Shown here: piece after piece, positions 25,709-56,531 of the stretch
Numbering within the stretch: position 1 is the first letter of the stretch
Layout: every line of letters starts with the position of its first letter
Assembly (NCBI RefSeq): GCF_004339525.1
Contig: NZ_SMGE01000001.1
Location: 2,542,001-2,606,000, forward strand
DNA length: 64,000 bases
Source: Flavobacterium sp. 90
Lineage (GTDB): Bacteria; Bacteroidota; Bacteroidia; Flavobacteriales; Flavobacteriaceae
Reading direction: 5' to 3'
Position numbers and translations under genes: made by a program
The notes under the pieces: generated by a model
The model's database searches: none
Told to the model about the DNA's origin: nothing
What the model saw: the letters and a program-made list of their open reading frames with translations, nothing else

Positions 25709-27202
25709 ATGTTTTTTTTAGGAATTGATTTAGGAAGCTCTTCAGTAAAATTATCTGTATTTGATGCAGAGAAAGGGATAACTATTGGAGCAATTAGTGT
25801 TCCTGATTTTGAAATGCCAATTGTTGCCCCAAAATTTGGTTGGGCAGAACAAGATCCGGAATCCTGGTGGCAATTTGTAAAAGACGGAATCAAACAATTG
25901 GGTTCAAAATCTAATATTGATCTAAAGAAAATTGCAGGAATTGGAATTGCCTATCAAATGCATGGTTTGGTTTTGACCGATGAAAATTTAAATCCCGTTC
26001 GCTCTTCAATCATTTGGTGTGACAGTCGCGCTGCAAGTATTGGAGATGAAGTTTATAACAAAATGGGAACTGTAAATTGTCAGCAGGAAATTTTAGGAAG
26101 TCCCGGAAACTTTACCGCTTCAAAATTAAAATGGGTAAAAGACAATGAGCCTGAAATTTTCGCGAAAGCAAAATACATGATGCTTCCGGGAGATTTTATT
26201 GCAGCCAAATTATCAAAAGTAGCACAAATAAGCACTTCAGGTTTATCAGAAGCTGCTTTATGGAATTTCCCAGAAGGAAAACTGGCAACGAAAATCCTTT
26301 CTCAAATGGGATTATCATCGGATATCGTTCCGGAAATCGTTTCAAGTTTTGGAGTTCAAGCTACAATTCACTTAGAAATAGCACAAGAATTAGGATTAAA
26401 TCCTGATGCAAAAATAACCTACAGAGCAGGAGATCAACCTAACAATGCTTTGTCATTGAATGTTTTGAAACCTGGGGAAATCGCTACAACAGCCGGAACT
26501 TCGGCAGTAGTTTATGCCGTAAGCGATGAAGATGTTTACGATAAAAAAAACAGAATCAATACTTTTTTACACGTCAATAATACCGAAGCCGAAAAACGTA
26601 ACGGTGTTTTGTTGTGTATTAACGGTTCCGGAATTTTATACCAATGGTTACGTAAAATCATGTCTGTTGACAGAACTGATTTAATCGCCTACGAAAAACT
26701 AAATGCCGAAGCTGCAAAAGTTGAAGCAGGAAGTAACGGACTTCGTTTTTATCCTTTCGGAAATGGTGTAGAACGTATTTTCAATAATAAAAATGCAACT
26801 TCAGGAATTCAGAATTTAAACTTCAATATTCATCAACCGTCACATTTAGTGCGCGCTGCCTGCGAAGGAATTGTGTTTGCCATGAACTACGGTTTTGATG
26901 TTATGAAAGAAATTGGAGTTTCCGGAAACGTAGTGAGAGCAGGAAATTCAAACTTGTTTTTGAGTCCGGTTTTTAGAGAAATCTTCACGAATACTACACA
27001 AACTACTTTAGAATTATACAATACTTCAGGAGCAGAAGGTGCTGCAAGAGGCGCTGCTTTTGGTTTAGGATATTACAATTCGCTGGAAGAAGCTTTTCAG
27101 GGATTGCAATGTCTGGATAGAATTGAACCTAATAAAATCCTGACAAGTCAATATCAGGATTTATATCAAGAATGGAAAAGTCAAATTAAAATAGAACAAT
27201 AA
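25709..27202 (+). CDS. xylB: xylulokinase
   Basis: XylB phosphorylates D-xylulose to xylulose 5-phosphate with ATP in the cytoplasm. The 497-residue FGGY-family protein starts [17 protein letters not shown] (ATP-binding phosphate 1 loop). It carries the MHGLVL substrate segment near residue 86 and a catalytic aspartate D242 in AGDQPNNAL. The C-terminal ASNP part contains [17 protein letters not shown]. The stop codon is two bases from the xylA start, so the genes are translationally coupled. In this locus it uses xylose set free by the GH31 and beta-xylosidase enzymes encoded downstream. Confidence 0.95.
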
Positions 27203-27204
27203 GA

Positions 27205-28524
27205 ATGAGCACAACTAATCAATATTTTAAAAACATCGATACGATAAAATTCGAAGGAAGAGAAAGTGATAACCCACTAGCTTTTAAATGGTATGATGAA
27301 AATCGTATCGTTGCGGGAAAAACATTAAAAGAGCATTTGCGTTTTTCGATGGCGTACTGGCATACGTTATGTAACACAGGTGGAGATCCGTTTGGAGCTT
27401 CGACTGAAACATTTTCCTGGGATAAAAATGAGAATGTAATTCTAAGAGCAAAGGACAAAATGGATGCTGCTTTTGAATTCATGACAAAATTAGGTTTGCC
27501 TTATTATTGTTTTCATGATGTTGATGTTGTTGATGATGCGCCAACATTGGCAGAATTTGAAACTCGTATTCAAACAATGGTTGAATATGCAAAACAAAAA
27601 CAACAAGAATCAGGTATTAAATTGTTGTGGGGAACTTCAAACTTGTTCAGCAATCCTCGCTATATGAACGGTGCTGCAACGAATCCAAACTTTGATGTTT
27701 TGGCTTATGCAGGAGCTCAGGCAAAAATCGCAATCGATGCAACTATTGCACTTGGAGGTGAAAATTATGTTTTCTGGGGAGGTCGTGAAGGATATATGAG
27801 TTTGTTGAACACAGACATGAAAAGAGAATTGGACCACTTGGGAAGATTCTTGAATACTTGTAAAGATTATGCTCGCAAAGAAGGTTTTAAAGGAAATTTC
27901 CTGATCGAACCAAAACCTATGGAACCTACAAAACATCAATATGATTATGATGCAGCGACTTCATTAGGATTCATCAATAAATACGGACTTCAAAATGATT
28001 TCAAATTGAATCTTGAAGTAAACCACGCAACTCTTGCAGGACATTCTTTTGAGCACGAATTGCAAGTTGCAGTTGATGCTGGAATGTTAGGAAGTATCGA
28101 TGCAAACAGAGGAGATTATCAAAATGGTTGGGACACAGATCAGTTCCCAATAAATCTTCAGGAAGTTACACAAGCTATGTTAGTTATCCTTGAAGGTGGA
28201 GGAATTCAAGGCGGAGGTGTAAACTTTGACGCTAAAGTGAGAAGAAATTCAATCGATTTAGAAGATAAATTCATTGCACACATTTCAGGAATGGATGTTT
28301 TTGCAAGAGGATTAATCTGCGCAGATCAGATACTACAAAATACAGATTACAAAAAATTACGCACACAGCGTTACAGTTCATTTGATGCCGGAAACGGAGC
28401 AAAGTTCGAAAACGGAGAATTATCTCTTGAAGATCTTAGCAAAATTGCCCGCGCAAGTGGAGAACCTCAACCATTAAGTGGTAGACAAGAATTATTCGAA
28501 CAGATTATTTCGAATGCATACTAA
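27205..28524 (+). CDS. xylA: xylose isomerase
   Basis: XylA converts D-xylose to D-xylulose in the cytoplasm with two divalent metals. The 439-residue class II enzyme shows the catalytic FHDVDVVDD segment (H104, D107), [16 protein letters not shown], the lysine in [31 protein letters not shown] and [18 protein letters not shown]. It lies directly after xylB and 49 bp before susC. Placement at the head of the polysaccharide locus ties xylose breakdown to glycan import. Confidence 0.97.
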
Positions 28525-28573: not shown

Positions 28574-31500
28574 ATGAAAAGCAAACATTGTCTTAAAACA
28601 ACATCGCTCTCGTTCTGCATGGCGCTGTTGCTTAGTGTATTTACGATGCAGTCCGGTTTTGCGCAACAGCAATCCCAGGTTGTAAGCGGAAACGTAAAAT
28701 CAGCAGAAGACGGTATGGGAGTTCCGGGTGCTACAGTTGCTATTGAAGGAACTAAGACGGGAACATCAACAGATTTTGATGGAAATTTTAAGCTTGAAGC
28801 AAAAGAAGGCAGCGTAATTGTAATCAGTTTTATGGGATTTAAACCTCAGCGTGTAACCGTTGGAACTCAAAAAACGATTAATGTTACTTTACAAACAGAA
28901 GCAGCAGATCTTAAAGAGGTTGTCGTGATTGGGTACGGTTCTCAAAAGAAAACTCTTGTAACCAATGCTGTTACGCAGGTTAGTGGTGATAATCTTGCCA
29001 AAACCAATACTACAAATGCATTGCAGGCACTTCAGGGGCAAGCAGCTGGACTTCAAATTACTTCTACTTCAGGACAACCGGGAGAAGCTTTGAAGGTAGT
29101 TATTAGAGGTGTAGGTTCTGTAGCAGGAAGTAGTCCGCTATATGTAGTAGACGGAATACTTACGGGAGATATTTCTTATTTAAGCAATTCAGATATTGAA
29201 TCTATTTCTGTTTTAAAAGATGCTGCATCAGCTGCTATTTATGGTTCTCAGGCTGCAAATGGAGTTGTTTTAGTAACAACAAAAAAAGGTAAAAGAGGAA
29301 CTGCGGGAAAAATCACTTTCGATCAATATTACGGTGTACAATCTGTAGCGAGAAAAGTTGATTTATTGAATGCAACTGAATATGCAACAATATTAAATGA
29401 AGCAGCAGTAAACTCTGGTAAAAATCCATATTTTACAAATAGCCAAATTGCAGGACTAGGAAACGGAACAAACTGGATGGATAAAATGTTTACCGATAAT
29501 GCTGCAACAAAAAACTTCTCATTTGGTGCTTCAGGTGGTTCAGATGCTTCAGTTTATTCTACATCATTGGCTTACTTAGGACAAGAAGGAGTTGTAGGAG
29601 GACCGGACCTTTCAGATTATCAACGTTATAATTTCAGATTCAATTCAGAACATAAATTATACAAAGATGTTGTTACAATTGGTCAAAATTTAAGCTTTGC
29701 TTATGTAGATAAAAACGGAATTGGTGTTGGAAATCAATACAGCAACTCTTTAAGAAGTGCTTTTCAGGTTTCGCCTTTATTACCAATGTACGATTCAAAC
29801 GGAAATTATTTTGATACGACAAACAGCACGGAGCCTTGGTTAGCTGGTACAGCAAATCCTTACGCGTTAATGAAGTATACAAATCAAAATGAAAGTAATA
29901 ATCAAAAATTATTAGGGAATGTTTATTTGCAAATTGAACCTATAAAAAACTTAACATTCAAGACTACTTTGGGTCTTGATTATTATGTATCCGAAGGACA
30001 TGCATATACTCCTGTATACAGATTGTCAATTTATGCAAACACCGCTTTTGATAAAGTAAATCAAAACATGAGCAAAAATAAAAGTATTACATGGGATAAC
30101 TTAGTGTCTTATAAATTTAATGTTGCTAGTAATCATCATGTTGAAGCTATGCTAGGTACCTCGTTTATTAAGTACGATGGAACATCTGTAGATGTTACAA
30201 ATGCAGATTCTGTTTTTAATGATTTAGAACATGCATGGATTGATAATACAACGAACAAAGACGGAGCTAAAATTGCTATTAAAGGTAAAAAAGAAGAAAA
30301 TAGACTGATGTCTTATTTTGGAAGATTAAACTACAACTTTAACGAAAAATACTTATTGAACGCAACACTTAGAGCGGATGGTTCATCAAAATTTGCTCCG
30401 GGAAATCAATGGGGTTATTTCCCTTCAGTATCTGGAGGTTGGGTAGCTTCAAATGAAGAATTTCTAAGAGATTCAAAAGTATTAAATTTCCTTAAATTAA
30501 GAGCAAGTTGGGGTCAGGTAGGTAATCAAAGTATTAGATCGTTTCAGTATTTGTCATTAATTAAATCAAATAATACAAATTATACTTTTGGTGATACAGA
30601 AGGTGTACTTACGCCTGGAGCTTATCCACAGAATTTATCAAATACAAATGTAAAATGGGAAACTTCAGAGCAAATTGACCTTGGTTTAGATGCAAGATTT
30701 TTAAACAATGCATTGAATGTAAGTTTTGATGTTTACCAAAAAACAAATAAAAACTGGTTAGTTCTTGCTCCAATTTTAGCTACTGCCGGTGCTGATGCTC
30801 CATTTATTAACGGTGGAGATGTTGTAAATAAAGGGGTTGAGTTAAGTTTAAATTACCAAAATAAAATTGGAGATTTTAATTACAGCATAAGTGCAAACGG
30901 TGCTTATAATAAAAACGAAGTAGGTAAAATACCAACAATCGATGGTCTTATTCACGGATTAAGTAATGAACTTTATGATAATGCCGGTGAATTTTACAGA
31001 GCACAAAACGGACAACCTTTAGGTTATTTCTGGGGATATAAAACAGGTGGTGTTTTTCAAAATCAAGCACAAATCGATAATTATAAATCAGCAAATGGTG
31101 TAGTATTACAACCTAATGCAGCTCCCGGAGATCTTATTTATGTAAATACTAATGGTGATGATAAAATAGATGGTACTGATAAAACGAATATTGGAAATCC
31201 AAATCCTGACTTTACTTATGGATTCTCTTTATCAGGTAGTTACAAAGCTTTTGATTTTTCATTAATGGCAAATGGTGTAGCAGGAAATCAAATTGTACAA
31301 TCGTATAGAAACCAAGCAGGTGCTTACGGAAACTATACTTCTGCAATATTAGATCGCTGGCATGGAGAAGGTTCTTCAAACACAATTCCAAGAGTAACAG
31401 AAGACAATAGAAACTTCACACAATTTTCAGATTTGTATGTTCAGAATGGTGATTTCTTAAGAATTAGTACTGTAACATTAGGATTTGATTTAGCAAAAAT

Positions 31501-31705
31501 GAAACAATCAAAACCATTTTTTGCAAGTCAGTTCAGAGTGTATTTCTCAGTATTAAACCTTTACACTTTTACGAAATATAACGGTATGGATCCTGAAATT
31601 GGATTTGGTTCTTCAAACGATGACCAAAAATTCTCATCAGGAGTTGATGTAGGTTACTATCCACGCCCAAGAACATTCATGTTAGGATTAAATGTTAAAC
31701 TTTAA
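28574..31705 (+). CDS. SusC-like TonB-dependent outer-membrane transporter
   Basis: The protein has 1043 residues. After a signal peptide (cleavage near GFAQQQ) comes a carboxypeptidase-D-like N-terminal extension (VSGNVKSAEDGMGVPGATV), a TonB-box-like stretch (KEVVVIGYGSQKK, about 115-127) and the plug domain with VVIRGVGSVAGSSPLYVVDG and AAIYGSQAANGVVLVTTKKG. A 22-stranded barrel ends in a typical C-terminal strand (PRPRTFMLGLNVKL). With the SusD product, 11 bp downstream, it imports oligosaccharides into the periplasm. Given the enzymes in the locus, xyloglucan oligosaccharides are the likely cargo. Confidence 0.94.
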   Translation: MKSKHCLKTTSLSFCMALLLSVFTMQSGFAQQQSQVVSGNVKSAEDGMGVPGATVAIEGTKTGTSTDFDGNFKLEAKEGSVIVISFMGFKPQRVTVGTQKTINVTLQTEAADLKEVVVIGYGSQKKTLVTNAVTQVSGDNLAKTNTTNALQALQGQAAGLQITSTSGQPGEALKVVIRGVGSVAGSSPLYVVDGILTGDISYLSNSDIESISVLKDAASAAIYGSQAANGVVLVTTKKGKRGTAGKITFDQYYGVQSVARKVDLLNATEYATILNEAAVNSGKNPYFTNSQIAGLGNGTNWMDKMFTDNAATKNFSFGASGGSDASVYSTSLAYLGQEGVVGGPDLSDYQRYNFRFNSEHKLYKDVVTIGQNLSFAYVDKNGIGVGNQYSNSLRSAFQVSPLLPMYDSNGNYFDTTNSTEPWLAGTANPYALMKYTNQNESNNQKLLGNVYLQIEPIKNLTFKTTLGLDYYVSEGHAYTPVYRLSIYANTAFDKVNQNMSKNKSITWDNLVSYKFNVASNHHVEAMLGTSFIKYDGTSVDVTNADSVFNDLEHAWIDNTTNKDGAKIAIKGKKEENRLMSYFGRLNYNFNEKYLLNATLRADGSSKFAPGNQWGYFPSVSGGWVASNEEFLRDSKVLNFLKLRASWGQVGNQSIRSFQYLSLIKSNNTNYTFGDTEGVLTPGAYPQNLSNTNVKWETSEQIDLGLDARFLNNALNVSFDVYQKTNKNWLVLAPILATAGADAPFINGGDVVNKGVELSLNYQNKIGDFNYSISANGAYNKNEVGKIPTIDGLIHGLSNELYDNAGEFYRAQNGQPLGYFWGYKTGGVFQNQAQIDNYKSANGVVLQPNAAPGDLIYVNTNGDDKIDGTDKTNIGNPNPDFTYGFSLSGSYKAFDFSLMANGVAGNQIVQSYRNQAGAYGNYTSAILDRWHGEGSSNTIPRVTEDNRNFTQFSDLYVQNGDFLRISTVTLGFDLAKMKQSKPFFASQFRVYFSVLNLYTFTKYNGMDPEIGFGSSNDDQKFSSGVDVGYYPRPRTFMLGLNVKL

Positions 31706-31716: not shown

Positions 31717-33291
31717 ATGAAAAATACCTATCTATATATTTTCTGTTTGACACTATTGTCATTGGGTTCTTGTAGTTTAGAAACAGAACCATTGGTACAA
31801 CAAACAGATACAAATTTTTATAAAACAACAGATGACGCCTTTTCAGCATTAGTAGGTTGTTATGATGGTTTGCAAGTTGCAACCGGAGCCAGTGGTTTGG
31901 GAGTTCCTGTAATTAGTGAAGTAATGTCTGACGATTGTTTTGGCGGAACCGGAAATTCTGATGGTTACAATTATGCTGCAATCGATGAATTTGATATTTC
32001 ACGTTCACCTTCAGATGTTGATATGCTTAACGGTAACTGGATTGCTTATTACAAAGCGCTTTATCGTTGTAATGTTTTCTTATCGAAAATGGATCAGATT
32101 GACTGGAAAGGTGATACAGCTTTAAAGAATACATATACATCTGAAACGAGATTTATCAGAGCTTATTTATATTTTGAAATGGCACGTTTATGGGGAAGTG
32201 TTCCTTTGTTAACAGCTCCTTCTTCTGATAATATACCGCAAGCAGCTCCAGAAGAAATTTATAAAGTAATTGCCGAAGATTTAGTATTTGCATCAAACAA
32301 TTTACCTTCAGTTGCTTATAATGCTACAACAAGCGGACGTATTACAAAATGGGCAGCAAAATCTTTACTTGGACGTGTTTATTTATATTATACAGGATAC
32401 TACGGAAAAACTGATTTAGCAGGAGTAGTTACTAAAGCACAAGCTTTAGGACATCTTGAAGATGTTATTGCATCAAGTGGTCACGGTTTAGTAGATGATT
32501 TTTCTACTTTATGGCCAGCAGCTTCAGTTGATAAATATGCAGGAGAAGGCAATAAAGAAATCGTGTTCTCTGTGAAATATTCTTATACAAGTGATTATAA
32601 CGGAAATACGGATGGAAACCACTGGATGGTAATGTTCGGGATGAGAGAATTTTCATCTTACCCTTACGGACGTGGTTGGGGAGTTACAGTAAACTCTAAA
32701 TTATGGAAAGCCTACAGCGCAACAGATACAAGACGTACAGCAAGTGTAATTGGAATCGATGAAGAAAAAATAAAATTCGATAAAATCAATAATCAAAGAG
32801 AATACACAGGATATTACAATAAGAAATATTCGCCAATGGTTGACAAAGACGGTAAAGATATGCCACTAGTTATGGGAAGTCAATATTGGGATATAGGTCA
32901 ATTTCAGGATTATGTTGTGTTAAGATATGCAGATGTTTTGTTAATGGCAGCTGAATTAGGAAGCGGAAGTGCGCAGACTTATTTTGATAATGTGAGAAGA
33001 AGAGCTTACAAAGATAATTTTACAGCTTTACCTGTAAATGCTGATAATATCTTAAACGAAAGACATCTGGAATTTGCTCTTGAAGGAATTAGATATTGGG
33101 ATTTATTACGTCAGGGTGTTGGAAAAGCTTCTACTACAATTGCAGAAACTACAACATTATTAAATGGTGGAGTTGCCGCTACAAAAACAATTTCGGCAGC
33201 TAAAATCCAAGCTACAAAAGGACTACAACAAATTCCAAATACACAGATTACATTATCTGGAGGAGTTTTGAAACAAAATGCAGGTTGGTAA
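31717..33291 (+). CDS. SusD-like glycan-binding lipoprotein
   Basis: The protein has 524 residues. A lipoprotein signal (LLSLGSCSLETEP, C19 lipidated) places it on the outer-membrane surface. The SusD/RagB fold shows TPR-like helices (NWIAYYKALYRCNVFLSKMD, ETRFIRAYLYFEMARLWGSVPLLT) and a C-terminal LNERHLEFALEGIRYWDLLRQG typical of the family. It caps the SusC barrel and binds the incoming oligosaccharide. The next gene (an SGBP) starts 22 bp downstream. Confidence 0.94.
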   Translation: MKNTYLYIFCLTLLSLGSCSLETEPLVQQTDTNFYKTTDDAFSALVGCYDGLQVATGASGLGVPVISEVMSDDCFGGTGNSDGYNYAAIDEFDISRSPSDVDMLNGNWIAYYKALYRCNVFLSKMDQIDWKGDTALKNTYTSETRFIRAYLYFEMARLWGSVPLLTAPSSDNIPQAAPEEIYKVIAEDLVFASNNLPSVAYNATTSGRITKWAAKSLLGRVYLYYTGYYGKTDLAGVVTKAQALGHLEDVIASSGHGLVDDFSTLWPAASVDKYAGEGNKEIVFSVKYSYTSDYNGNTDGNHWMVMFGMREFSSYPYGRGWGVTVNSKLWKAYSATDTRRTASVIGIDEEKIKFDKINNQREYTGYYNKKYSPMVDKDGKDMPLVMGSQYWDIGQFQDYVVLRYADVLLMAAELGSGSAQTYFDNVRRRAYKDNFTALPVNADNILNERHLEFALEGIRYWDLLRQGVGKASTTIAETTTLLNGGVAATKTISAAKIQATKGLQQIPNTQITLSGGVLKQNAGW

Positions 33292-33313: not shown

Positions 33314-34684
33314 ATGAAAAATATTAAATTATTAGTTACATCATTTTTGATGCTTGCGTTAATGCTTGTATCATCTTGTTCTCCGGAAACGTATTCTTTG
33401 GACGCACCGATGGATAAATCGGATATACATTTTGAAATTACTCAGGATTTAGTCGCAGATCCGGGAGGAAATACTGTAATCATGAAAAACACAACTCCCG
33501 GAGTTGTACTGAATTGGGATTATGGTACAGGGAAATCCAGTAAAGCGGTAGAAACTGTAAAATATGCCTTTAAAGGAAGTTACACGATTAAAATTTCTGC
33601 AGTAACCGGCGGTGGTATTGTTGCATTAGATCCAGTAACAATTACAGTAAATAAAGACAACTTAAACTATGTTAATGATCCACTTTGGACAGCATTATCA
33701 GGCGGAGTTGGTAAAAAGAAATCTTGGGTAACAGACAATGGTAAATATGGATTAGCTCCTGGTGCAATGTCTTATGCAGATCCAAGCACAACTGTAGAAT
33801 GGGGTAACTTTACTCCAAACTGGGAACCTGAAGGAAATGCCAACTCAAGTACAAATGCAGATATGCACTGGGGAAGATACATGACATTCAGCCTTGAAGG
33901 AGGACCTTTTATGACCATTCATGAAGCTGATGGAACAACGATCGAAAACGGATCTTATTTCTTAGACATCAATGCACATACTTTAACAACAACAGGAACA
34001 ACAATCCTAAGACCAGATAATTATATTGCAAACGCAAGTAACTGGAGTGATAATATTAAAGTATTAAAATTAACAGACAATCAGTTAAGAATTGCTGTAA
34101 AAAGAACCAATAGCGAAGGTCCTTGGTGGTATATCTGGAATTTTGTTTCTAAAGATTATGCTGATAATTATGTTCCTCCGGTTACAGTACCAGTTGTTGA
34201 CGAAGGTTTCAATCCAACTTTTGCACCGGGAGAATTATTGACAATGCTTACAGGTGGAGCCGGAGCAGGAAGAGTTTGGAATCTGGACGGAAAAGGAAAT
34301 CCAATTGACTGGGTTGGAAAAGGAAAAGGCTGGACGGTTGATTCTACGAGTTCTTATAACTGGGGATGGAATGATGATTGGGCAAAAATTGCAGGAAATT
34401 CATGGATACGTTTTGACCAATGGGGAGGTAAATTAAACTACACACGCAGTCAAAATGGAGTTGTAACGTCAGGTATTTTTACCATAAATGCAGCGACAAA
34501 TGAAATCAATTTAGGAAGTGAAACACTTCTTCAAAATGCAACAAGCTGGATGAACCCAACTGTAAATGTTATTAAAGTAGTAAAAGCATATAATAAAGAT
34601 TTCCTTCAAAAAGGAATCTGGCTTGGAACATCATATGATACAGGTAAGGACGAATGGTTTGTTTTCCATTACATAGTTCCTTAA
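33314..34684 (+). CDS. putative surface glycan-binding lipoprotein (SGBP) with duplicated domain
   Basis: The protein has 456 residues. The lipobox is VSSCSPE, and the acidic residue after it fits surface export. An N-terminal PKD/Ig-like domain (about 40-115) is followed by two related units. One starts at about residue 121 (LWTALSGGVGKKKSWVTD) and one at about 307 (LLTMLTGGAGAGRVWNLD). Both are rich in tryptophan (HWGRYMTF, WWYIWNF, NWGWNDDW) as in carbohydrate-binding surfaces. Its position right after SusD is where SusE/F or SGBP-B genes lie. It probably binds the polysaccharide chain on the cell surface. No enzyme motif is seen. Confidence 0.75.
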   Translation: MKNIKLLVTSFLMLALMLVSSCSPETYSLDAPMDKSDIHFEITQDLVADPGGNTVIMKNTTPGVVLNWDYGTGKSSKAVETVKYAFKGSYTIKISAVTGGGIVALDPVTITVNKDNLNYVNDPLWTALSGGVGKKKSWVTDNGKYGLAPGAMSYADPSTTVEWGNFTPNWEPEGNANSSTNADMHWGRYMTFSLEGGPFMTIHEADGTTIENGSYFLDINAHTLTTTGTTILRPDNYIANASNWSDNIKVLKLTDNQLRIAVKRTNSEGPWWYIWNFVSKDYADNYVPPVTVPVVDEGFNPTFAPGELLTMLTGGAGAGRVWNLDGKGNPIDWVGKGKGWTVDSTSSYNWGWNDDWAKIAGNSWIRFDQWGGKLNYTRSQNGVVTSGIFTINAATNEINLGSETLLQNATSWMNPTVNVIKVVKAYNKDFLQKGIWLGTSYDTGKDEWFVFHYIVP

Positions 34685-34740
34685 AGTAATTAAGGTTTTT
34701 TTAATAAAATGAAACCATAATTACTTCAAACAAGTAAACA

Positions 34741-34773
34741 ACCGGTAGGGGATTGAAACAGTCACCTATCGGT
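34741..34773 (+). promoter_or_regulatory. hairpin between the SGBP and GH2 genes
   Basis: CCGGTAGG and CCTATCGG arms face each other across about 15 bases in the 130 bp gap. No T-run follows. It may set mRNA stability or partial read-through between the binding-protein and enzyme parts of the operon. Confidence 0.45.
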
Positions 34774-34814
34774 ATGTTTATATTTGTTTTTCAAAACAAT
34801 AAAAGCCTATTAAT

Positions 34815-39841: not shown

Positions 39842-40298
39842 GCCACGAATTGCACTAATTTCCACGAATTAAATTGGTGATAATTTGTGTAATTCGTGGC
39901 AAAAAAACAGCCCTAGATTGGAGGGTTTTAGGTCTCGCAGATTTGGCAGATTGAGCAGATTTTTTTTTTAATTTTTAAGATTAGTAAAAAATAGAGCTAC
40001 CGATTAAGAAGATTAAAATCTGCTCAATCTGCCAAATCTGCGAGAGAAAATTAAGTTACAGATTAAAAAAATATATGTCACAGATTTAAAGGGTTCTAAT
40101 GGATTATATCATGGTTAATTAGTTAGAAAAATCTTTTGGAATCTTTTAATCGGTGGCAAAAAACAGTCATAAATTACACAAATTAAATTCGAGATAATTC
40201 GTGCAATTCGTGGCAAAAGAAAAATCCTTAATTGGATAAAAAATAAGTTTTTGTTGAGTTTCTAAATCGGGTGACGTCTCATAAGCAACACCCGATTT
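39842..40298. repeat. cluster of inverted repeats in the GH31-GH97 gap
   Basis: The 492 bp gap has no gene. It holds an imperfect hairpin starting GCCACGAATTGCAC (39842-39900), a perfect 30 bp inverted repeat (39934-39963 and 40015-40044, beginning CTCGCAGATTTGGCAGATTG), a further degenerate copy of the first (about 40151-40213), and a hairpin AAATCGGGTG / CACCCGATTT (40264-40273, 40289-40298) 28 bp before the GH97 start. Confidence 0.8.
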
Positions 40299-40325
40299 AT
40301 TAAAAATGAATTAAGAAAAAATATC

Positions 40326-48526: not shown

Positions 48527-50038
48527 ATGAAAACTATTTTAAATAACTATGTGCTTAGTACACTTTTATGTTTGTGCTTTTTTAGCCTTTTGGCCTGTAG
48601 TTCTGAAAAAGATACAGAAGACACAAAGTCAGCCAATAAAACGCTGACTGTAGATACTAATAAAATTGATATTGTAAACAAAGGCGGTGATGCAGTTGTC
48701 AAAGTCGCTGCAACTGTTAATGCCTGGACAATTACGAGTTCTAATACAAGTTGGTTACAATTAAGCCAATCTGCTGGAGTTACAGGAACAGTAATCGTAA
48801 AAATAACAGCTTCTGAGAATACAGCTGCCGAAGCAAGAACTGCTACTTTGACATTAAGTTCGCCTGAAGCTGCATCAATTCAAATTTCTGTTTCACAAGC
48901 GGGCGGAGCTCCAGTTGCAGGTTTGTATCCAAGTTATAATACAAATCCAATTGCTGCTGATAATTCAGGAATGTCAAGTTCTGCTGTAGAATTAGCTGCA
49001 AAAATAAAACTAGGATGGAACATCGGTAATACAATGGAAGCAACCGGAAGCGAAACTGCGTGGGGAAATCCAAAAGTTACAAAAGCATTGATTGACGCTG
49101 TTAAAGCAAACGGATTTAATGCCATTAGAATTCCGTGTTCATGGAATCAATATTTAGAAAATTCGGCTACAGCCAAAATTAAAACCGATTGGTTGGACAG
49201 AGTAAAAGAAGTTGTTCAGTATTGTGTAGACAATAATATGTATGTAGTTGTAAATATCCACTGGGATGGCGGATGGTTAGAAAACAACATTACCGAAGCT
49301 AAAAAAGTAGAAAATAATGCGAAACAAAAAGCTTTTTGGGAACAAATTGCAACACATTTAAGAGGTTTCGACGAACATTTACTTTTTGCAAGTGCAAACG
49401 AGCCAGCAGTTGAAGACGCTACACAAATGGCAGTTTTAACTTCATATCACCAAACATTTATTGATGCTGTTCGTTCAACCGGAGGTAAAAATGCTTTCAG
49501 AACATTAGTAATTCAGGGACCAACAACAGACATCGAAAAAACAAATAAATTAATGACAGTTTTGCCAACTGATACAGCAACAAGCCGTATGATGGTCGAA
49601 GTACATTATTATGCTCCGTGGAATTTTGCGGGATTAACAAAAGACGAATCATGGGGAAAAATGTTCTACTATTGGGGAGCAAATTACCATTCAACAACAG
49701 ACCTTGACAGAAACCCAACTTATGGAGAAGAAGCAGATTTAGAGAAAAACTTTAAATTAATGAAAGCGCAATTTGTAGACAAAGGGATTCCTGTTTTGTT
49801 AGGAGAGTTTGGTGCAATTCGTCGTACAACTTTAACGGGTGATGCATTGACATTACACCTAAATTCAAGAGCATATTATTTAAAAACGGTAGTAAAAACA
49901 GCAAGAGCAAATGGTTTATTACCTTTTTATTGGGATGAAGGAAGTCTTGGTGATAACGGTTTTGGAATCTTTAAAAGAAGTGATAACACCGTTTTCGATA
50001 CTCAGGCATTAAATGCATTGATCGAAGGATTACAGTAA
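48527..50038 (+). CDS. BACON-GH5 lipoprotein endo-glucanase (probable endo-xyloglucanase)
   Basis: The protein has 503 residues. A lipobox (FSLLACSSEKDTED) with acidic residues after the cysteine suggests display on the cell surface. A BACON domain (about 35-125, NAWTITSSNTSWLQLSQSAGVTG) precedes a GH5 barrel: LGWNIGNTMEATGSETAWGNP, VVVNIHWDGGW, acid/base E292 in SANEPAV, HYYAPWNFAG, and nucleophile E427 in LLGEFGA. BACON plus GH5 subfamily 4 is the build of the surface endo-xyloglucanase in the characterised Bacteroides ovatus locus. It would make the first cut in the polymer before SusCD import. Confidence 0.88.
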   Translation: MKTILNNYVLSTLLCLCFFSLLACSSEKDTEDTKSANKTLTVDTNKIDIVNKGGDAVVKVAATVNAWTITSSNTSWLQLSQSAGVTGTVIVKITASENTAAEARTATLTLSSPEAASIQISVSQAGGAPVAGLYPSYNTNPIAADNSGMSSSAVELAAKIKLGWNIGNTMEATGSETAWGNPKVTKALIDAVKANGFNAIRIPCSWNQYLENSATAKIKTDWLDRVKEVVQYCVDNNMYVVVNIHWDGGWLENNITEAKKVENNAKQKAFWEQIATHLRGFDEHLLFASANEPAVEDATQMAVLTSYHQTFIDAVRSTGGKNAFRTLVIQGPTTDIEKTNKLMTVLPTDTATSRMMVEVHYYAPWNFAGLTKDESWGKMFYYWGANYHSTTDLDRNPTYGEEADLEKNFKLMKAQFVDKGIPVLLGEFGAIRRTTLTGDALTLHLNSRAYYLKTVVKTARANGLLPFYWDEGSLGDNGFGIFKRSDNTVFDTQALNALIEGLQ

Positions 50039-50142: not shown

Positions 50143-52089
50143 ATGAAAAAAATAATCTTTCTTTTTTTACTATTCGGTAGCATTGCAAACGCAAATGTAA
50201 AAATGCCTTTGCTTTTTTCTGACGGAATGGTTTTGCAGCGCAACAAAGAAATTCCGGTTTGGGGTTGGGCTGATGCCAATGAAAAAGTAGAAGTTCATTT
50301 TAACAAACAAATCAAAACAATTCAAGCCGATAAAAACGGAAAATGGATGCTTAAACTTTCTGCCGAAAAAGCCGGAGGACCATTTGAATTAATTATTATC
50401 GGAAAAAATAAAATTACCATAAAAGATGTTTTGGTTGGAGAAGTCTGGATTTGCAGCGGACAATCAAACATGGAATTTCAGATGTATAAAAACTTGGATT
50501 CTGAAAAAGAAATGGCTGATGCCGATTATCCAATGATTCGTCATTTTGGAGTTGCACAAGATTTAAGCGGATTACCAAAAGAAGATTTAAAAGCAGGAAA
50601 ATGGTTAGTTGCCAACAAAGAAAACGTGCGTGATTTTACAGCAGTCGGTTTCTTTTTTGCCAAGAAATTATATGCTGAATTAAAAATTCCAATTGGAATC
50701 ATCAACACATCTTGGGGCGGAACCTGTGTAGAAACCTGGACAAGCCGTGAAGCATTTCAAAAAAGTGATGATTTTAAAACAATGATTGCCGATGTTCCAA
50801 CTTTGAATATGGATTCTATTTCGAAATTATATGCTTTGAGAATGCGCGAAAGAGTCGAGAAAATTCAGGGAACAGAAGTAAGTACAGCCAATGAAATTAG
50901 TTTTAAAGAAACAGCATTTAATGATAAAAGTTGGGGAGAATTAAATACCCCAAGTTTATGGGAAAATCAGCCTTTGGGAGATTTAGATGGCGTGGTTTGG
51001 ATGCGAAAAACCATCACACTTTCAGCAGAAGAAATTAAGAACAAAGCGATATTAAGTCTTGCAAAAATCGACGATGAAGACATTACTTATGTCAACGGAA
51101 TCGAAGTTGGTAAAAATACCCAATGGGACGCAAAACGTGTTTACGAAGTTCCCGCAAACGTATTAAAAGAAGGTACAAATGTTATTGCCGTTAGAATCGT
51201 AGACAACAGCGGCGGTGGCGGAATCTACGGTGATTCAGCAGATTTAAAATTAACTTTAGGAAGCAAAATCATTCCGCTTGACGGAAAATGGAAATACAAA
51301 GTTATCGTTGTAAAAACATCATTATCACCAAACAGTTATCCATCGTTATTATACAATGCAATGGTAAATCCGTTGATTCCGTATGCTATCGAAGGCGTTT
51401 TGTGGTATCAGGGCGAAGCCAATGTTTGGAGAGCAAAACAATATAAAAAAGCATTCCCGTTGATGATAAACGATTGGAGAACAAAATGGAAACAAGGTAA
51501 TTTTCCGTTCTATTTTGTACAATTATCGACTTTCAATGAATTCAATGGCAATAGCAAAGTAGGAAGTCGTTGGGCAGAACTTCGTGAAGCACAACTTGAA
51601 ACTTTAAAATTACCAAATACCGGAATGGCTGTAACGACAGATATTGGTAATGCAAAAGACATTCATCCAACCAATAAAAAAGATGTTGGTTTGCGTTTGG
51701 CGGCAATTGCCTTGAATAATGTTTACGGCAAAAAACAAGTTTACAGCGGACCAACTTTTAAAGCACAGGAAATAAAAGGAAACCAAATCATTCTGACTTT
51801 CGAGAATATTGGTTCGGGATTATCAACTTCAGATAATACCGAAAACGTAAAAGGATTCGAAATTGCTGGAGCAGACAAAGTTTTTCATTCCGCGAAAGCG
51901 ATAATCAAAGACAATAAAATAATAGTTTCAAGTGACGACGTAAAAAATCCGGTAGCCGTTCATTATGGTTGGGCAGACGATGATACAGAGATCAATTTGT
52001 ATAACAAAGAAAAATTTCCTGCGTCGCCTTTCAGAACCGATAATTGGGAAATGATTACGGCAAACGAAACTTACAAAGTCAGTAAATAA
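50143..52089 (+). CDS. SGNH/SASA-family carbohydrate acetylesterase
   Basis: The protein has 648 residues and a signal peptide ending near IANANV, so it is periplasmic. The sialate O-acetylesterase-like fold has nucleophile S108 in CSGQSNMEF and the catalytic D506/H508 in AKDIHPTNKKDVG. GVLWYQGEANVWRA is a further family block, and a jelly-roll insert lies between the two halves (about 245-375). In this setting acetylated sugars such as O-acetyl-galactose of xyloglucan are the likely substrates, rather than sialic acid. No sialic acid genes are present. Confidence 0.83.
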   Translation: MKKIIFLFLLFGSIANANVKMPLLFSDGMVLQRNKEIPVWGWADANEKVEVHFNKQIKTIQADKNGKWMLKLSAEKAGGPFELIIIGKNKITIKDVLVGEVWICSGQSNMEFQMYKNLDSEKEMADADYPMIRHFGVAQDLSGLPKEDLKAGKWLVANKENVRDFTAVGFFFAKKLYAELKIPIGIINTSWGGTCVETWTSREAFQKSDDFKTMIADVPTLNMDSISKLYALRMRERVEKIQGTEVSTANEISFKETAFNDKSWGELNTPSLWENQPLGDLDGVVWMRKTITLSAEEIKNKAILSLAKIDDEDITYVNGIEVGKNTQWDAKRVYEVPANVLKEGTNVIAVRIVDNSGGGGIYGDSADLKLTLGSKIIPLDGKWKYKVIVVKTSLSPNSYPSLLYNAMVNPLIPYAIEGVLWYQGEANVWRAKQYKKAFPLMINDWRTKWKQGNFPFYFVQLSTFNEFNGNSKVGSRWAELREAQLETLKLPNTGMAVTTDIGNAKDIHPTNKKDVGLRLAAIALNNVYGKKQVYSGPTFKAQEIKGNQIILTFENIGSGLSTSDNTENVKGFEIAGADKVFHSAKAIIKDNKIIVSSDDVKNPVAVHYGWADDDTEINLYNKEKFPASPFRTDNWEMITANETYKVSK

Positions 52090-52228: not shown

Positions 52229-53731
52229 ATGAAAAAATGCATTCTCTTATTGATATTTTTCATTACGTTTTTCAGTAATGCACAGCAACAAAAAGCAAAA
52301 GTTGGCGATGATTCGTATCAAAATCCAATATTTGCAGGAGATTATCCCGATCCATCGATTATTAGAGACGGCGAAGATTACTATATCGTACATTCTTCGT
52401 TCAACTATTATCCGGGATTATTGATCTGGACATCAAAAGATTTGGTCAATTGGAAACCCGTAACACATGCACTTAAAAAAAGTGTTGGTTCAGTTTGGGC
52501 GCCGGATTTGGTGAAATTCGACAATAAATTTTACATTTATTTTCCGGCAAATGAAACCAATTATGTAGTATCGGCAGACAATATCAACGGACCTTGGAGC
52601 GATCCAATCGATTTAAAAATTGGCAATATCGATCCCGGACATTTTACAGACGACAAAGGCAATCGCTATTTATATTTTAGTAATGGTGATTATGTGCCAT
52701 TGTCAAAAGACGGACTTTCAGTTTCCGGAGCAAGCAAACATGTATACGATGGTTGGAAAATTCCATCAGAATGGTCGATAGAATGTTTTTGTATGGAAGG
52801 GCCAAAAGTGCTCAAACGTGGAGATTACTATTATTTAACCGTTGCCGAAGGCGGAACTGCTGGACCGGCAACAAGTCATATGGTTATTTCGGCAAGATCA
52901 AAATCGCCATTAGGACCTTGGGAAAACTCACCTTACAATCCCATTTTAAGAACAAATGACAGTTCAGAGAAATGGTGGTCAAAAGGACACGCAACATTAA
53001 TCGATGATGTAAACGGAAAATGGTGGATGGTTTTTCACGGTTACGAAAATGGATATTACAACATGGGACGCCAAACCCTTTTGCAACCTGTAGAATGGAC
53101 AAACGATGGTTGGTTTAAAAGCCCAAAAAACATCAAAACCAATGAACCAATAAAAAAACCGGCAGGAAAAACGATCAAAAGTAATTTTACGCTTTCGGAT
53201 ACTTTTTCAGGAACAGAATTACAACCACAATGGCAGTTTTTTGACCATTTTGACGATCAAAGATTTAAGCTAACTCCAAACGGAATTCAGATAAAAGGTA
53301 AAGGAAACGGAATTGGCAACAGTTCGCCACTTTTATGCACGCCTTCGGATCATTCTTATTCGGCTCAAGTTGAGGTTGAAATAGAAGGCAATGCCACGGC
53401 AGGATTAATTCTGTTTTACGACAATAAGCTTTATACCGGAATTGCTGCCGATAAAGAAAATGTTTTAGCCATTTTACGATCATGGCAATTTCCTACTCTA
53501 AAAGGTATCAATAAAACCCATTTATTCTTGCGCCTCGAAAAGAAAGAACAACTCGTAAATATGTTTTACAGCCTTGACGGAAAAGAATGGATTAAGATCG
53601 AAAACTCAGCCGAAGTTTCGTCGTTTAATCATAACGTATTAAGTGGTTTTATGAGTCTTCGATTAGGACTTTCTTCCGTTGGCGAAGGTCAGGTTACGTT
53701 CAAAAATTTCGTTTACAAAGGCATAAATTAA
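52229..53731 (+). CDS. glycoside hydrolase family 43 (probable alpha-L-arabinofuranosidase or beta-xylosidase)
   Basis: The protein has 500 residues and a signal peptide ending near SNAQQQ. The five-bladed propeller carries the three acidic residues: D41 in DYPDPSI, D93 in VWAPDLV and E190 in FCMEGPKV. A C-terminal beta-sandwich (about 330-500) matches the layout of subfamily 12 enzymes, which act as arabinofuranosidases in other xyloglucan loci. It would clear arabinosyl side chains in the periplasm. Beta-xylosidase is the main alternative. Confidence 0.84.
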   Translation: MKKCILLLIFFITFFSNAQQQKAKVGDDSYQNPIFAGDYPDPSIIRDGEDYYIVHSSFNYYPGLLIWTSKDLVNWKPVTHALKKSVGSVWAPDLVKFDNKFYIYFPANETNYVVSADNINGPWSDPIDLKIGNIDPGHFTDDKGNRYLYFSNGDYVPLSKDGLSVSGASKHVYDGWKIPSEWSIECFCMEGPKVLKRGDYYYLTVAEGGTAGPATSHMVISARSKSPLGPWENSPYNPILRTNDSSEKWWSKGHATLIDDVNGKWWMVFHGYENGYYNMGRQTLLQPVEWTNDGWFKSPKNIKTNEPIKKPAGKTIKSNFTLSDTFSGTELQPQWQFFDHFDDQRFKLTPNGIQIKGKGNGIGNSSPLLCTPSDHSYSAQVEVEIEGNATAGLILFYDNKLYTGIAADKENVLAILRSWQFPTLKGINKTHLFLRLEKKEQLVNMFYSLDGKEWIKIENSAEVSSFNHNVLSGFMSLRLGLSSVGEGQVTFKNFVYKGIN

Positions 53732-53853: not shown

Positions 53854-53909
53854 GGGCTATACACGCTACTTCGGTAGCAAGCTCCTATCCCTCACGCGCG
53901 TTTCGATAT

Positions 53910-53994
53910 CCTAACAGGTTTTCAAAACCTGTTAGGTATAATTGTCAAACAGAGTAAAATCCAAGATACCTAACAGGTTGAAAAACCTGTCAGG
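53910..53994. repeat. double CCTAACAGG palindromic element (GH43-GH95 gap)
   Basis: Two palindromes with a spacer beginning TATAATTGTC; 85 bp in total. A further short inverted repeat AACGGATTTTAATCCGTT lies at about 54068-54085. The remainder of the gap (53732-54131) has no gene. Confidence 0.85.
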
Positions 53995-54131
53995 AGATTA
54001 AACAAACTAGGAAATAATTCGAGTCAAAGGCTTTTTAAAGTTCCGGAGGAACGAACTATATTGTAACAACGGATTTTAATCCGTTGAACGTTAGATTAAC
54101 ATTTCAATTGGAAATAATTAAAACCTTATCA

Positions 54132-56531
54132 ATGAAATTAAAAAACACATTTTTCATTTTACTATTCACAACTTTTTGCCTCAACATGACCGCACAATCA
54201 AGTCATGTTTTATGGTATAATAAACCCGCAGAATTTTTTGAAGAAAGTTTAGTTTTAGGAAACGGAAAAATGGGAGCAACTGTTTTTGGCGGCGCAAACA
54301 CGGATAAAATTTATCTAAATGACATCACGCTTTGGTCGGGAGAACCTGTAAATGCAAATATGAATCCCGAAGCGTACAAAAATATTCCGGCAATTCGAGA
54401 AGCACTCAAAAACGAAGATTACAAACTAGCTGATGAATTGAATAAAAAAATTGAAGGAAAAAATTCGGAATCATATTCGCCACTCGGAACGTTAGAAATC
54501 AATAATTCTGAGAAAGGAAAAGCAGTCAATTATTATCGTGAGTTGGATATTTCGAATGCCGTATCAAAAGTGACTTATGAAATGAACGGTATCAAATTTA
54601 CTCGCGAATATTTTGTTTCGGCACCAGACCAAATCATGGTAATTAAGTTGACAAGCAGTGAAAAAGGAGGTTTGAATTTTGATATTAATTTAAAAAGTTT
54701 ACTAAAATCAAATGTCGAAGTACAAAATAATATTTTGATAATGACCGGAGTCGCTCCAATTCATGAAAATCCAGGATATTCAGTTTTACCAAAATACGGA
54801 CAAGTAAAAGAAAGAGGGACAAGATTTACTACTTTAATTCAAGTTAAAAAAACAGACGGAAAAATTACAAGTTCCAGAGATGCTTTAACTTTAAAAGACG
54901 CAACCGAAGCCTATATTTACGTTTCTGTGGCTACAAGTTTTAATGGTTTTGACAAAAATCCTTCGACGGAAGGTTTAAATGATATATCAATTGCGTTACA
55001 AAATCTGAACAAGGCATTTGTACAACCATTCGATAAATTAAAAGAAAGTCATACAAAAGATTATCAAAAATTCTACAATCGTGTTTCTTTAGATTTAGGA
55101 AAAACAACTGCACCGGATTTACCTACAGACGAACGTTTACTAAGATATTCAGACGGAAAAGAAGATAAAAATTTAGAAATCCTTTACTTCAATTACGGAC
55201 GTTATTTGCTAATAAGCAGTTCAAGAACTTTGGGCGTTCCTGCGAATTTACAAGGAATTTGGAATCCATATCTAAATCCGCCTTGGAGTAGTAATTATAC
55301 GATGAACATCAATCTGGAAGAAAATTATTGGCTTGCCGAAAATACAAATCTTTCTGAAATGCATTTGCCACTTTTGAGTTTTATAAAAAATCTTTCGGTT
55401 ACCGGAAAAATTACTGCAAAGACATTCTATGGCGTAAATGAAGGTTGGGCTTCGGCACATAATTCTGATATTTGGGCAATGACGAATCCCGTTGGAAATT
55501 TTGAGAAAGAAGATCCAAGTTGGGCTTGCTGGCCATTATCGGGAGCTTGGTTGAGTACACATATTTGGGAACATTACGTTTTTACGCAAGACAAAAAATA
55601 CCTAAAAAACGAAGGATATCCAATTATGAAAGGCGCTTCGCAATTCTTTTTAGGATGGATGATTACGGACAAAAACGGAAATTTAATTACTTCGCCTTCG
55701 ACTTCACCGGAGAATAAATACATTGCGCCGGATGGTTTTATTGGAGCAACGATGTATGGCGGAACAGCAGATTTAGCGATGATTCGAGAATGTTTTGAAA
55801 AGACAATTAAAGCGTCAGAAGTTTTAAATATTGATGCCGATTTCAGAGCAAAATTAGAAAAAGCACTTTCTAAATTTCATCCGTATCAAGTTGGTAAAAA
55901 AGGAAACTTGCAAGAATGGTATTTTGACTGGAATGACGAAGATCCAAAACACCGTCACCAATCGCATTTATTCGGACTTTTTCCTGGCGATCATATAACG
56001 CCATTAAAAACTCCGGATTTGGCTAAGGCTGCAAAGCAAACCTTGGAAATAAAAGGCGATGAAACAACTGGTTGGTCAAAAGGCTGGAGAATCAATCTTT
56101 GGGCAAGACTTTGGGACGGAAATCGCGCTTATAAAATGTACAGAGAATTACTTCGATATGTAGATCCTGATGGAAAGAAAACCGAAAAACCAAGAAGAGG
56201 CGGAGGAACGTATCCGAATTTATTCGACGCACATCCACCTTTTCAAATTGATGGAAACTTTGGAGGAGCCGCAGCTGTTGCCGAAATGTTAGTACAATCT
56301 GATGAAAACGAAATCCGACTTTTGCCTGCTTTACCAGACGCGTGGGAAACTGGATCAATAAAAGGAATCTGCGCTCGAGGCGGATTTGAAATCGCAATGA
56401 ATTGGGAAAATAAAAAGCTGCAAAAAATAATAATTTCTTCTAAAATAGGAGGAAAAACAACCTTAATAAACGGAGATAAAAAACAAACAATCACTCTGAA
56501 AAAAGGAGAAAGTTTAGAAATAAACTGGTAA
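54132..56531 (+). CDS. glycoside hydrolase family 95 (probable alpha-L-fucosidase)
   Basis: The protein has 799 residues from the ATG at 54132, which gives a proper signal peptide (KLKNTFFILLFTTF, cleavage near MTAQ); an upstream start at 54084 would bury it. The N-terminal domain opens WYNKPAEFFEESLVLGNGKMGA, typical of GH95. The (alpha/alpha)6 barrel shows NINLEENYWLAENTN, the acid E527 in STSPENKYI, HRHQSHLFGLFPGD and INLWARLWDGNRAYKM. It would remove terminal fucose from galactosyl side chains in the periplasm. It is the last gene of the locus and ends it before a repeat. Confidence 0.88.
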   Translation: MKLKNTFFILLFTTFCLNMTAQSSHVLWYNKPAEFFEESLVLGNGKMGATVFGGANTDKIYLNDITLWSGEPVNANMNPEAYKNIPAIREALKNEDYKLADELNKKIEGKNSESYSPLGTLEINNSEKGKAVNYYRELDISNAVSKVTYEMNGIKFTREYFVSAPDQIMVIKLTSSEKGGLNFDINLKSLLKSNVEVQNNILIMTGVAPIHENPGYSVLPKYGQVKERGTRFTTLIQVKKTDGKITSSRDALTLKDATEAYIYVSVATSFNGFDKNPSTEGLNDISIALQNLNKAFVQPFDKLKESHTKDYQKFYNRVSLDLGKTTAPDLPTDERLLRYSDGKEDKNLEILYFNYGRYLLISSSRTLGVPANLQGIWNPYLNPPWSSNYTMNINLEENYWLAENTNLSEMHLPLLSFIKNLSVTGKITAKTFYGVNEGWASAHNSDIWAMTNPVGNFEKEDPSWACWPLSGAWLSTHIWEHYVFTQDKKYLKNEGYPIMKGASQFFLGWMITDKNGNLITSPSTSPENKYIAPDGFIGATMYGGTADLAMIRECFEKTIKASEVLNIDADFRAKLEKALSKFHPYQVGKKGNLQEWYFDWNDEDPKHRHQSHLFGLFPGDHITPLKTPDLAKAAKQTLEIKGDETTGWSKGWRINLWARLWDGNRAYKMYRELLRYVDPDGKKTEKPRRGGGTYPNLFDAHPPFQIDGNFGGAAAVAEMLVQSDENEIRLLPALPDAWETGSIKGICARGGFEIAMNWENKKLQKIIISSKIGGKTTLINGDKKQTITLKKGESLEINW

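Follow-up and report, generated by a model that had tools for sequence, protein, structure and literature searches.

What governs a xyloglucan utilization locus (XyGUL) that opens with two genes of xylose breakdown, and how do those genes come to stand at its head? The locus in question occupies positions 25709–56531 of a 64,000-nucleotide stretch of Flavobacterium sp. 90 (assembly GCF_004339525.1, contig NZ_SMGE01000001.1, positions 2,542,001–2,606,000), here called the window, within which locus positions are counted; the genome is a single contig of 6.65 Mb. On one strand the locus reads xylB-xylA-susC-susD-SGBP-GH2-GH31-GH97-GH3-GH39-GH3-BACON-GH5-SASA esterase-GH43-GH95, where GH denotes a glycoside hydrolase family and SGBP a putative surface glycan-binding protein. 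It is probable, in our judgement, that the whole belongs to the regulon of a local repressor of the NrtR family, the product of the adjacent gene nudixA, and that the sugar sensed is most likely xylose. G and L numbers below are our handles for genomes and loci.

The features on which this proposal rests lie just upstream of the locus, where two tandem Nudix regulators with a winged-helix domain (WHD) on the opposite strand, an operator and a small peptide gene headed by its own operator are found. The regulators and the region ahead of xylB are as follows.

23868–24602, minus strand: nudixB, a paralogous NrtR/AraR-type regulator (Pfam NrtR_WHD, AraR_C and NUDIX)
24602–25318, minus strand: nudixA, an NrtR/AraR-type regulator, likely XylR (Pfam; BtAraR structure 5bs6, 183.8 bits)
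25593–25625, plus strand: promoter-like block, TTTTG (25593–25597) and TACACTTG (25618–25625), conserved in 17 aligned loci
25623–25643, plus strand: predicted operator site 1, a 21-bp semipalindrome, TTGTAGTCAAAATAACCATAA
25645–25665, plus strand: predicted operator site 2, a weaker 21-bp semipalindrome, ATAAGTTCAACTTGACTATAA, 1 bp past site 1

Thus the 390 bp between nudixA and xylB hold a conserved block (TTTTG, 20 bp, TACACTTG) that is overlapped by the two semipalindromes. The consensus for Flavobacterium promoters is TTG-N17–23-TANNTTTG, and the block is kept throughout the 17-locus alignment, in loci with and without xylBA alike. A site matching at 17/18 or better occurs in all 37 of the nudixA–xylB or nudixA–susC gaps tested, again with and without xylBA, a count that is partly circular because the half-site was read from the window locus itself. 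Ten extra regions gave sites of 16–18/18 in seven; those at 16–17/18 with no XyGUL following stand before xylB in G144, G196 and G100, and before xylA in Neptunitalea (L020). NudixA possesses the Nudix domain and the NrtR winged helix that the NrtR family requires; two glutamates of the REUXEE core are leucine (motif from PMC4666351), so that its Nudix box is impaired. On the same branch stands BT0791, a XylR that goes with xylRBAE, according to the part of PMC3878776 drawn on here.

The reach of the operator was examined in 299 genomes drawn from the genus Flavobacterium, in which the XyGUL GH5 was called at E ≤ 1e-70 and the XylA clade of the window at E ≤ 1e-222. The exact pattern TTRTAGTCANNNNNACCATAA gave 79 sites in 63 of these genomes, against 5 sites for a reversed-pattern control, and 61 of the 63 carry the GH5 or the XylA clade. 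Eleven genomes with either gene are without the exact pattern; in G222, G327 and G486 a close variant is found instead, and in G482 there is neither an exact site nor a close variant. An earlier pattern, TAGTCAAANTNACCATAA, matched exactly at the XyGUL only and, with up to two mismatches, 12 times against 23 for the control; our argument rests on the exact search, because the relaxed pattern is no commoner than its control. Locus heads account for 58 of the 79 sites (34 in fetched loci, three in L311–L313, 19 placed by a distance of 17–22 kb to the GH5, and those of G424 and G366 by an adjacent nudixA), nine stand before a small peptide gene, and 12 lie elsewhere. In G424 the operator and nudixA are followed by GH2; in G366 no open reading frame (ORF) was found within 500 bp of the operator. 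Nine of the 12 remote sites have a gene 6–160 bp downstream.

Window genome and G300: GH12 (PF01670)
G272: GH43; the XyGUL of G272 shows no GH43
G231: GH39
G359, G350 and G201: GH74-like proteins
G315: a major facilitator superfamily (MFS) protein
G201, a further site: L-fucose dehydrogenase (NF052481, 404 bits against 300)

No gene follows the remaining remote sites, in G365, G239 and G483; the GH5 and the XylA clade are both absent from G239 and G483. GH12 and GH74 are families containing xyloglucanases. The GH74 label is our presumption from sequence motifs; the two such proteins scanned have BNR/sortilin repeats and a type IX sorting tail (Pfam). Judged from these predicted functions, the remote genes headed by the operator are of the kinds required for breaking down xyloglucan and its fucose. 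In G350 the GH74-like gene (L309, 2903–5326) sits beside nudixA with its own operator and the XyGUL shows no GH5, as if one endoxyloglucanase were replacing the other; the layout in G201 (L015, 1225–3651) is the same. As a further example, a site with one mismatch precedes a GH43 gene in G442, the XyGUL of which is also without GH43. Immediately ahead of the GH12 gene with the operator is a gene for a secreted CAP-family protein (L274, 796–1329; G000, 1.01 Mb).

One member of this candidate regulon was unexpected, and stands beside the locus itself.

23445–23465, plus strand: second operator copy, TTGTAGTCATTTGAACCATAA, ahead of the peptide gene and overlapping the −7-like box TATACTTG (23440–23447)
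23588–23821, plus strand: gene for a 77-aa bacteriocin-like peptide with a double-glycine leader and four cysteines

The second operator lies 122 bp before the peptide ORF, and an alignment of 10 loci shows it conserved along with the promoter block upstream of it. The leader has 26 residues and ends in GG. Clear homologues occur in 11 of the 299 genomes (a twelfth, in G439, is marginal, contains stops and is not counted); all 11 are beside the XyGUL, nine within fetched loci and those of G288 and G399 by distance to the GH5, and all have a site of 17–18/18 at 109–124 bp upstream. Precursors of 77 and 69 aa represent two core types on one leader family. Nonsynonymous divergence (dN) is 0.006–0.12 and synonymous divergence (dS) 0.24–1.4 over 25 pairs, dN being far below dS in each, which indicates that the gene is real and constrained. 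The shared operator suggests that feeding and the secreted peptide would be switched on together. Extra operators near the peptide's place, at the nudixB/nudixA end but with no peptide ORF, are seen in G365 (L310), G291 (L188), G457 (L192) and G228 (L184), and are possibly remnants of a lost peptide gene.

What the peptide does is a finely balanced matter. That it has a signalling or housekeeping role as a secreted peptide, and is not antibacterial, we rate at only a little below an even chance. Purifying selection is strong in all 25 pairs, with no diversification, and the neighbouring genes (lepA, nudixB) include none for export, immunity or thiol oxidoreduction, unlike bacteroidetocin clusters as described in the relevant part of PMC6671954; the three C39 peptidase matches in the genome are all away from the gene. 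Set against this are the occurrence of two distinct core types behind a single leader family, the four cysteines, and the fact that one of 14 homologues in a large protein set is named a bacteriocin by its source. The leader scored 21.1 bits with the 'bacteriocin-like protein' model NF047798, under the cut-off of 23.5, and a search of the PDB with the peptide gave no useful match.

These observations can be assembled into a scheme. Without xylose, dimers of NudixA would occupy the tandem pair of 21-bp sites and thereby cover the −7 box and the start region of a single promoter, blocking xylB-xylA-susC-susD-SGBP and, by way of read-through, the enzymes. Basal GH5 at the surface would cut xyloglucan and SusCD would import the oligosaccharides, which GH95, GH2, GH31, GH3, GH43, GH39 and the esterase may then strip in the periplasm. 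Xylose so freed would pass to the cytoplasm, lift the repressor and feed XylA and XylB, encoded by the first genes of the same predicted transcript. The same operator would govern unlinked xyloglucan genes (GH12 in the genome of the window) and the secreted bacteriocin-like peptide. In genomes holding another xylA (ten were tested), loss of xylBA would have left a xylose operator in charge of susC. The sequences themselves show the gene content, the conserved operator with its association with xyloglucan genes, and the remnants of xylB; NudixA as the binder, xylose as the effector, repression, a single transcript, the localisation of the proteins and the activity of the peptide are inferred.

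That NudixA is the protein bound to the operator is inferred, and it is conceivable, if rather unlikely, that NudixA is a passenger and that NudixB, a Crp-like protein or an unlinked factor binds there. Two Nudix paralogues do stand side by side, and a Crp-like palindrome has been described at Bacteroides xylRBAE (PMC3878776, in part). However, 12 of 40 loci, G300 included, have no separate nudixB, and 11 of these 12, the exception being G482, still contain a site scoring 17/18 or more. The peptide, nudixA and both operators are all present in G300, which shows that the arrangement can do without nudixB. NudixA is also found near xylBA or xylA outside the XyGUL (G111, G144, L019, L020). Finally, the layout of the sites matches that reported for AraR, whose 21-bp semipalindromes in most Bacteroides genomes form a tandem pair ahead of araM, separated by 3 bp (PMC4666351, in the sections relevant here).

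A number of findings weigh against control of the locus by a xylose-sensing NudixA through one operator, in addition to the circularity already mentioned. The exact pattern is missing in seven of the 64 GH5 genomes and in four of the 31 XylA-clade genomes, and the half-site pattern with up to two mismatches falls below its control in the window genome (11 against 18). Four of 41 loci (G117, G222, G327 and G482) stand outside the set of 37 gaps, and the stretches cut from three of the ten extra regions (L018, L019, L250) contain no site. Amongst seven genomes of other genera with XylA-clade xylBA, four (G111, G100, G196, G144) do not have susCD following. F. johnsoniae, whose locus is without xylBA, grows on xyloglucan, showing that it can dispense with the head. 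Lastly, a strong hairpin and a consensus promoter between SGBP and GH2 mean that the enzymes may have a start of their own.

The genes of the locus itself were called from ORFs, Pfam and NCBIfam profile searches and PDB matches. Every gene named in the sequence-only reading is present, in the place, order and strand that it gave; the regulators, operator and peptide gene immediately ahead of the locus go unmentioned in it.

25709–27202, plus strand: xylB, xylulokinase (Pfam; the best NCBIfam match is the xylulokinase model)
27205–28524, plus strand: xylA, xylose isomerase (TIGR02630, above cut-off)
28574–31705, plus strand: susC, TonB-dependent receptor of the type 1 cassette (Pfam, NCBIfam; cassette boundary at about 28.6 kb)
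31717–33291, plus strand: susD (Pfam)
33314–34684, plus strand: putative SGBP, lipoprotein-like, end of the cassette (boundary at about 34.7 kb)
34815–37304, plus strand: GH2, beta-galactosidase-like (Pfam, NCBIfam, family match)
37434–39833, plus strand: GH31, YicI-like, likely an alpha-xylosidase (5f7c, 428 bits)
40326–42332, plus strand: GH97 of the alpha-glucosidase-type branch (Pfam, family match)
42472–44628, plus strand: GH3 (a) (Pfam)
44635–46215, plus strand: GH39, beta-xylosidase-like (Pfam, family match)
46264–48513, plus strand: GH3 (b) (Pfam)
48527–50038, plus strand: BACON-GH5, predicted endoxyloglucanase of the Cel5D/BoGH5A kind, N-terminus lipoprotein-like (Pfam, structure matches)
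50143–52089, plus strand: SASA acetylesterase (Pfam)
52229–53731, plus strand: GH43, with BoGH43A/B among its matches (Pfam)
54084–56531, plus strand: GH95, alpha-L-fucosidase-type (Pfam)

XylA scores 664 bits against a cut-off of 533, and XylB 283 bits with its best model, below the cut-off of 380; the named relatives of XylA are from [Flexibacter] sp. ATCC 35103 (99%) and Flavobacterium shii (93%). The SGBP (456 aa) is the sole gene product of the set without a Pfam match, its N-terminus matching 5jmb weakly (E 1e-4). The gaps at the head are 2 bp between xylB and xylA, 49 bp from there to susC, 11 bp to susD and 22 bp to the SGBP gene. The arrangement is more than chance: related genomes show this gene order again, flanked by lepA and colV/pheS. 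A single simple operon free of internal signals was considered and rejected, given hairpins and a consensus promoter at 34.7 kb: the gap between SGBP and GH2 (34685–34814) folds far more strongly than shuffled sequence (z −6.5), the stem-loops differing between loci, and contains the promoter at 34753–34786. Such signals possibly set the ratio of import protein to enzyme. Upstream of GH97 (about 40262–40300) there is a further hairpin, its stem conserved (TAAATCGGGTG / CACCCGATTTA) together with a leader in 14 aligned loci; an Rfam search of 21000–58000, this hairpin included, gave no match.

The substrate proposed by the sequence-only reading was xyloglucan, and this has held. The locus has the SusCD pair, a GH5_4-type endoxyloglucanase and the side-chain enzymes of a XyGUL, and shares orthology and synteny with the locus of G333, which we take to be the genome of F. 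johnsoniae UW101; on this analysis it is the Flavobacterium XyGUL. Its GH5 is nearest to structures of C. japonicus Cel5D (577 bits) and then to BoGH5A (3zmr, 275 bits), and so is closer to CjGH5D than to BoGH5A, as befits GH5_4 subclade 2D type I. Its Trp250, within the motif HWDGGW, lines up with a Trp in 5oyc and is a possible counterpart of Trp209 or Trp252 in BoGH5A numbering. Two neighbouring GH5 genes, one matching without the BACON part, occur in some XyGULs (G359, G309, G127). GH31 is YicI-like (5f7c 428 bits, YicI 389 bits, BoGH31A 117 bits). GH95, GH2 and GH39 each match their own family, GH39 with the beta-xylosidases; GH97 groups with alpha-glucosidases. The substrate is taken as known, because the orthologous locus of F. 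johnsoniae is already characterised: it is induced by xyloglucan, loss of its GH5 abolishes growth on xyloglucan, and loss of SusCD curtails growth (PMC11892949, 2025, from the portions used here).

It is very unlikely that another or a mixed hemicellulose is the real substrate, with xyloglucan secondary. This would account for the GH97 of the alpha-glucosidase branch and for the GH39 beta-xylosidases, neither of which is needed for simple xyloglucan. However, the GH5 is Cel5D-like, the predicted regulon includes GH12 and GH74-like proteins, from families with xyloglucanases, and the genome's GH10 sits with its other xylAB operon. In addition, the F. johnsoniae orthologue of the GH5 is needed for xyloglucan, and related GH5 enzymes that were assayed had no promiscuity toward other plant glycans (PMC11892949, same portions, which also report GH39 from Flavobacterium only).

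Turning to the xylose genes, the GH5 is present in 64 of the 299 genomes and the XylA clade in 31, of which 24 have the GH5 some 18–21 kb downstream on the same strand; 40 of the 64 GH5 genomes, G333 among them, have no XylA of this clade. Gene order was read in 28 of the 30 other Flavobacterium XylA-clade genomes (G201 and G315 being outside the set, and G201 read separately as L015), in G117 and G040 of other genera, and in 10 of the 40 GH5 genomes without the clade, chosen from those with the closest GH5. Amongst these, xylB-xylA-susC-susD is found in 29 of the 30 other XylA-clade loci; the exception, G482, has xylBA with no XyGUL beside it. The gap between xylA and susC is 40–53 bp in 29 loci, the window included (G117 was not in the measured set). 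Four xylBA-headed loci are without GH5 (G222, G327, G486, G231). Outside the genus the order xylBA-susCD recurs in Mangrovimonas (L016, L017), Neptunitalea (L018), G030, G117 and G040; Neptunitalea L020 has xylA without susCD.

In the ten xylBA-less loci, that of G333 included, nudixA adjoins susC and the locus again lies between lepA and colV/pheS. Four of them (G299, G306, G285, G404) retain a remnant of xylB: 84–108 nt align, at the exact place, with the xylB leader and the first 24–49 nt of its coding sequence (best E values between 3e-14 and 5e-30, the database being a small local one of eleven loci). The spacer-like stretch before susC is kept in all ten, which shows no more than that the break is upstream of this stretch. 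On a skeleton tree of five shared proteins (39 rows, with G482 and G040 outside), the presence of xylBA changes at least three times; such a tree cannot distinguish gain from loss, whereas the remnants do so in favour of loss. The head thus looks ancestral in the genus, and xylBA has probably been lost three or more times, absence within Flavobacterium being best read as loss. A recent insertion in some strains, to which the 40 genomes without the clade and the ambiguity of the change counts might point, is highly improbable and is rejected because xylB starts remain in four xylBA-less loci, the order being found also in Mangrovimonas, Neptunitalea, G117, G040 and G030. Another, ordinary XylA is present in all ten xylBA-less genomes; of 29 XylA-clade Flavobacterium genomes searched, 16 have another and 13 the clade enzyme only (Fisher 0.016, uncorrected for kinship). 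The window genome has three, one of them in an operon-like run with GH10, MFS, GH43, an NrtR-type protein, xylB and a transaldolase gene. The findings also suggest that the polysaccharide locus took over the switch of a xylose operon and retained it once the xylose genes had gone.

The sequence-only reading saw in the head a fusion, not made in this way in characterised gut loci, that links polymer degradation to xylose breakdown. The link stands at the level of the genome, in the close spacing across 29 loci and the one conserved promoter-operator upstream. Its novelty and the idea of an added fusion do not: xylose genes are already on record beside the XyGUL of Xanthomonas (PMC8245568) and in beta-1,3-xylan loci (PMC12125979), in the parts of these papers cited here, and absence within Flavobacterium is best explained by loss.

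Among the import genes, the susC-susD-SGBP segment exists in two forms, with about 45–50% identity in SusC, and both occur with and without xylBA; the SGBP has 456 aa in type 1 and 288 aa in type 2 (L013). When the window is compared with G442, G415 and G250 in steps of 150 bases, identity is 86–97% in xylA and 71–94% in GH2; between about 28.7 and 34.7 kb it is mostly 30–72%, and it drops to 0 at the end of the shorter SGBP. On the tree built from the remaining proteins the cassette switches type no fewer than six times (G117 outside the count), and the SusCD tree conflicts with that tree: the window groups with G476 and G464 by its SusCD and with G300 by its other proteins. The alignments point to a cassette that is swapped as a unit between otherwise similar loci. 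Against G300, the middle of susC (28855–30954) shows 76–92% DNA identity in the same steps and susD 91–98%, which suggests recombination or selection inside susC within type 1. Exchange of the cassette with the enzymes kept is as expected if import proteins are under attack by phages or peptides. A broader proposal, in which a xylose-sensing repressor would couple feeding, unlinked xyloglucanases and a competitor-targeting peptide while the import cassette is swapped whole between its two old forms, is offered tentatively and as a whole is doubtful.

The locus is therefore of a known kind, and its xylBA head a variant, probably the older one; what appears to be new is the regulon defined by the operator, the peptide within it and the swapped import cassette. 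A candidate regulator, promoter and operator can now be named for the Flavobacterium XyGUL, and the operator points by sequence to distant xyloglucan enzymes. SusCD, proposed in the field as a marker of xyloglucan use, occurs in a single orthologous locus as two forms that share only about 50% identity. The peptide makes diet-gated competition directly testable in F. johnsoniae, since its presumed genome, G333, carries the operator-peptide pair; if the broader proposal is true, a diet signal would arm a weapon in plant-associated Flavobacterium digesting xyloglucan. Titles and abstract openings in the open-access literature yielded no paper on this regulator or operator, on the link to the peptide or on the exchange of the cassette.

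How, then, does the locus compare with known systems? The XyGUL of B. ovatus has BACON-GH5, GH2, GH3, GH31 and GH43, as here; to our knowledge it has neither xylBA nor GH97 and GH39, and the GH31 of the window is far from BoGH31A. That of F. johnsoniae (Fjoh_0772–0782; PMC11892949) is orthologous and beside lepA, with SusCD, GH2, GH31, GH97, GH39, GH3, GH5, esterase and GH95; it differs in having no xylBA. The main text of that paper contains none of the words 'isomerase', 'regulator', 'NrtR' and 'Nudix', and the portions drawn on describe few insertions and no rearrangements among loci and do not mention cassette types, an operator regulon or the peptide. In Xanthomonas, xylB, xylA and an MFS gene beside the XyGUL are co-induced by xyloglucan oligosaccharides (PMC8245568), but that locus is based on GH74 and GH35, in another order and with no SusD-like partner (PMC11892949), and no NrtR regulator is mentioned in the relevant part of PMC8245568. 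Xylose genes also accompany a xylan locus of Gramella flava (PMC5306329), and XylA, XylB and SusCD occur together in beta-1,3-xylan loci of Bacteroidota (PMC12125979), to judge from the parts cited. With bacteroidetocins the peptide shares the double-glycine leader, four cysteines and a similar mature length (43–51 aa here, 42–48 there); membership is rejected, since the leader (26 aa against 15–16) and the neighbours do not fit, there being here no adjacent ABC peptidase, transmembrane protein or thiol oxidoreductase, a comparison by features and not by sequence similarity (PMC6671954, in part). The closest parallel in regulation is with BtAraR (BT0354) and BtXylR (BT0791), which are likewise Nudix-WHD regulators of the NrtR family (PMC4666351, PMC3878776, both in part). 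BtAraR responds to L-arabinose, has tandem 21-bp semipalindromes and also controls loci for arabinose polymers; the site in the window differs in sequence from the AraR sites shown there, and its predicted regulon is centred on xyloglucan and includes a peptide gene (PMC4666351, in the same sections).

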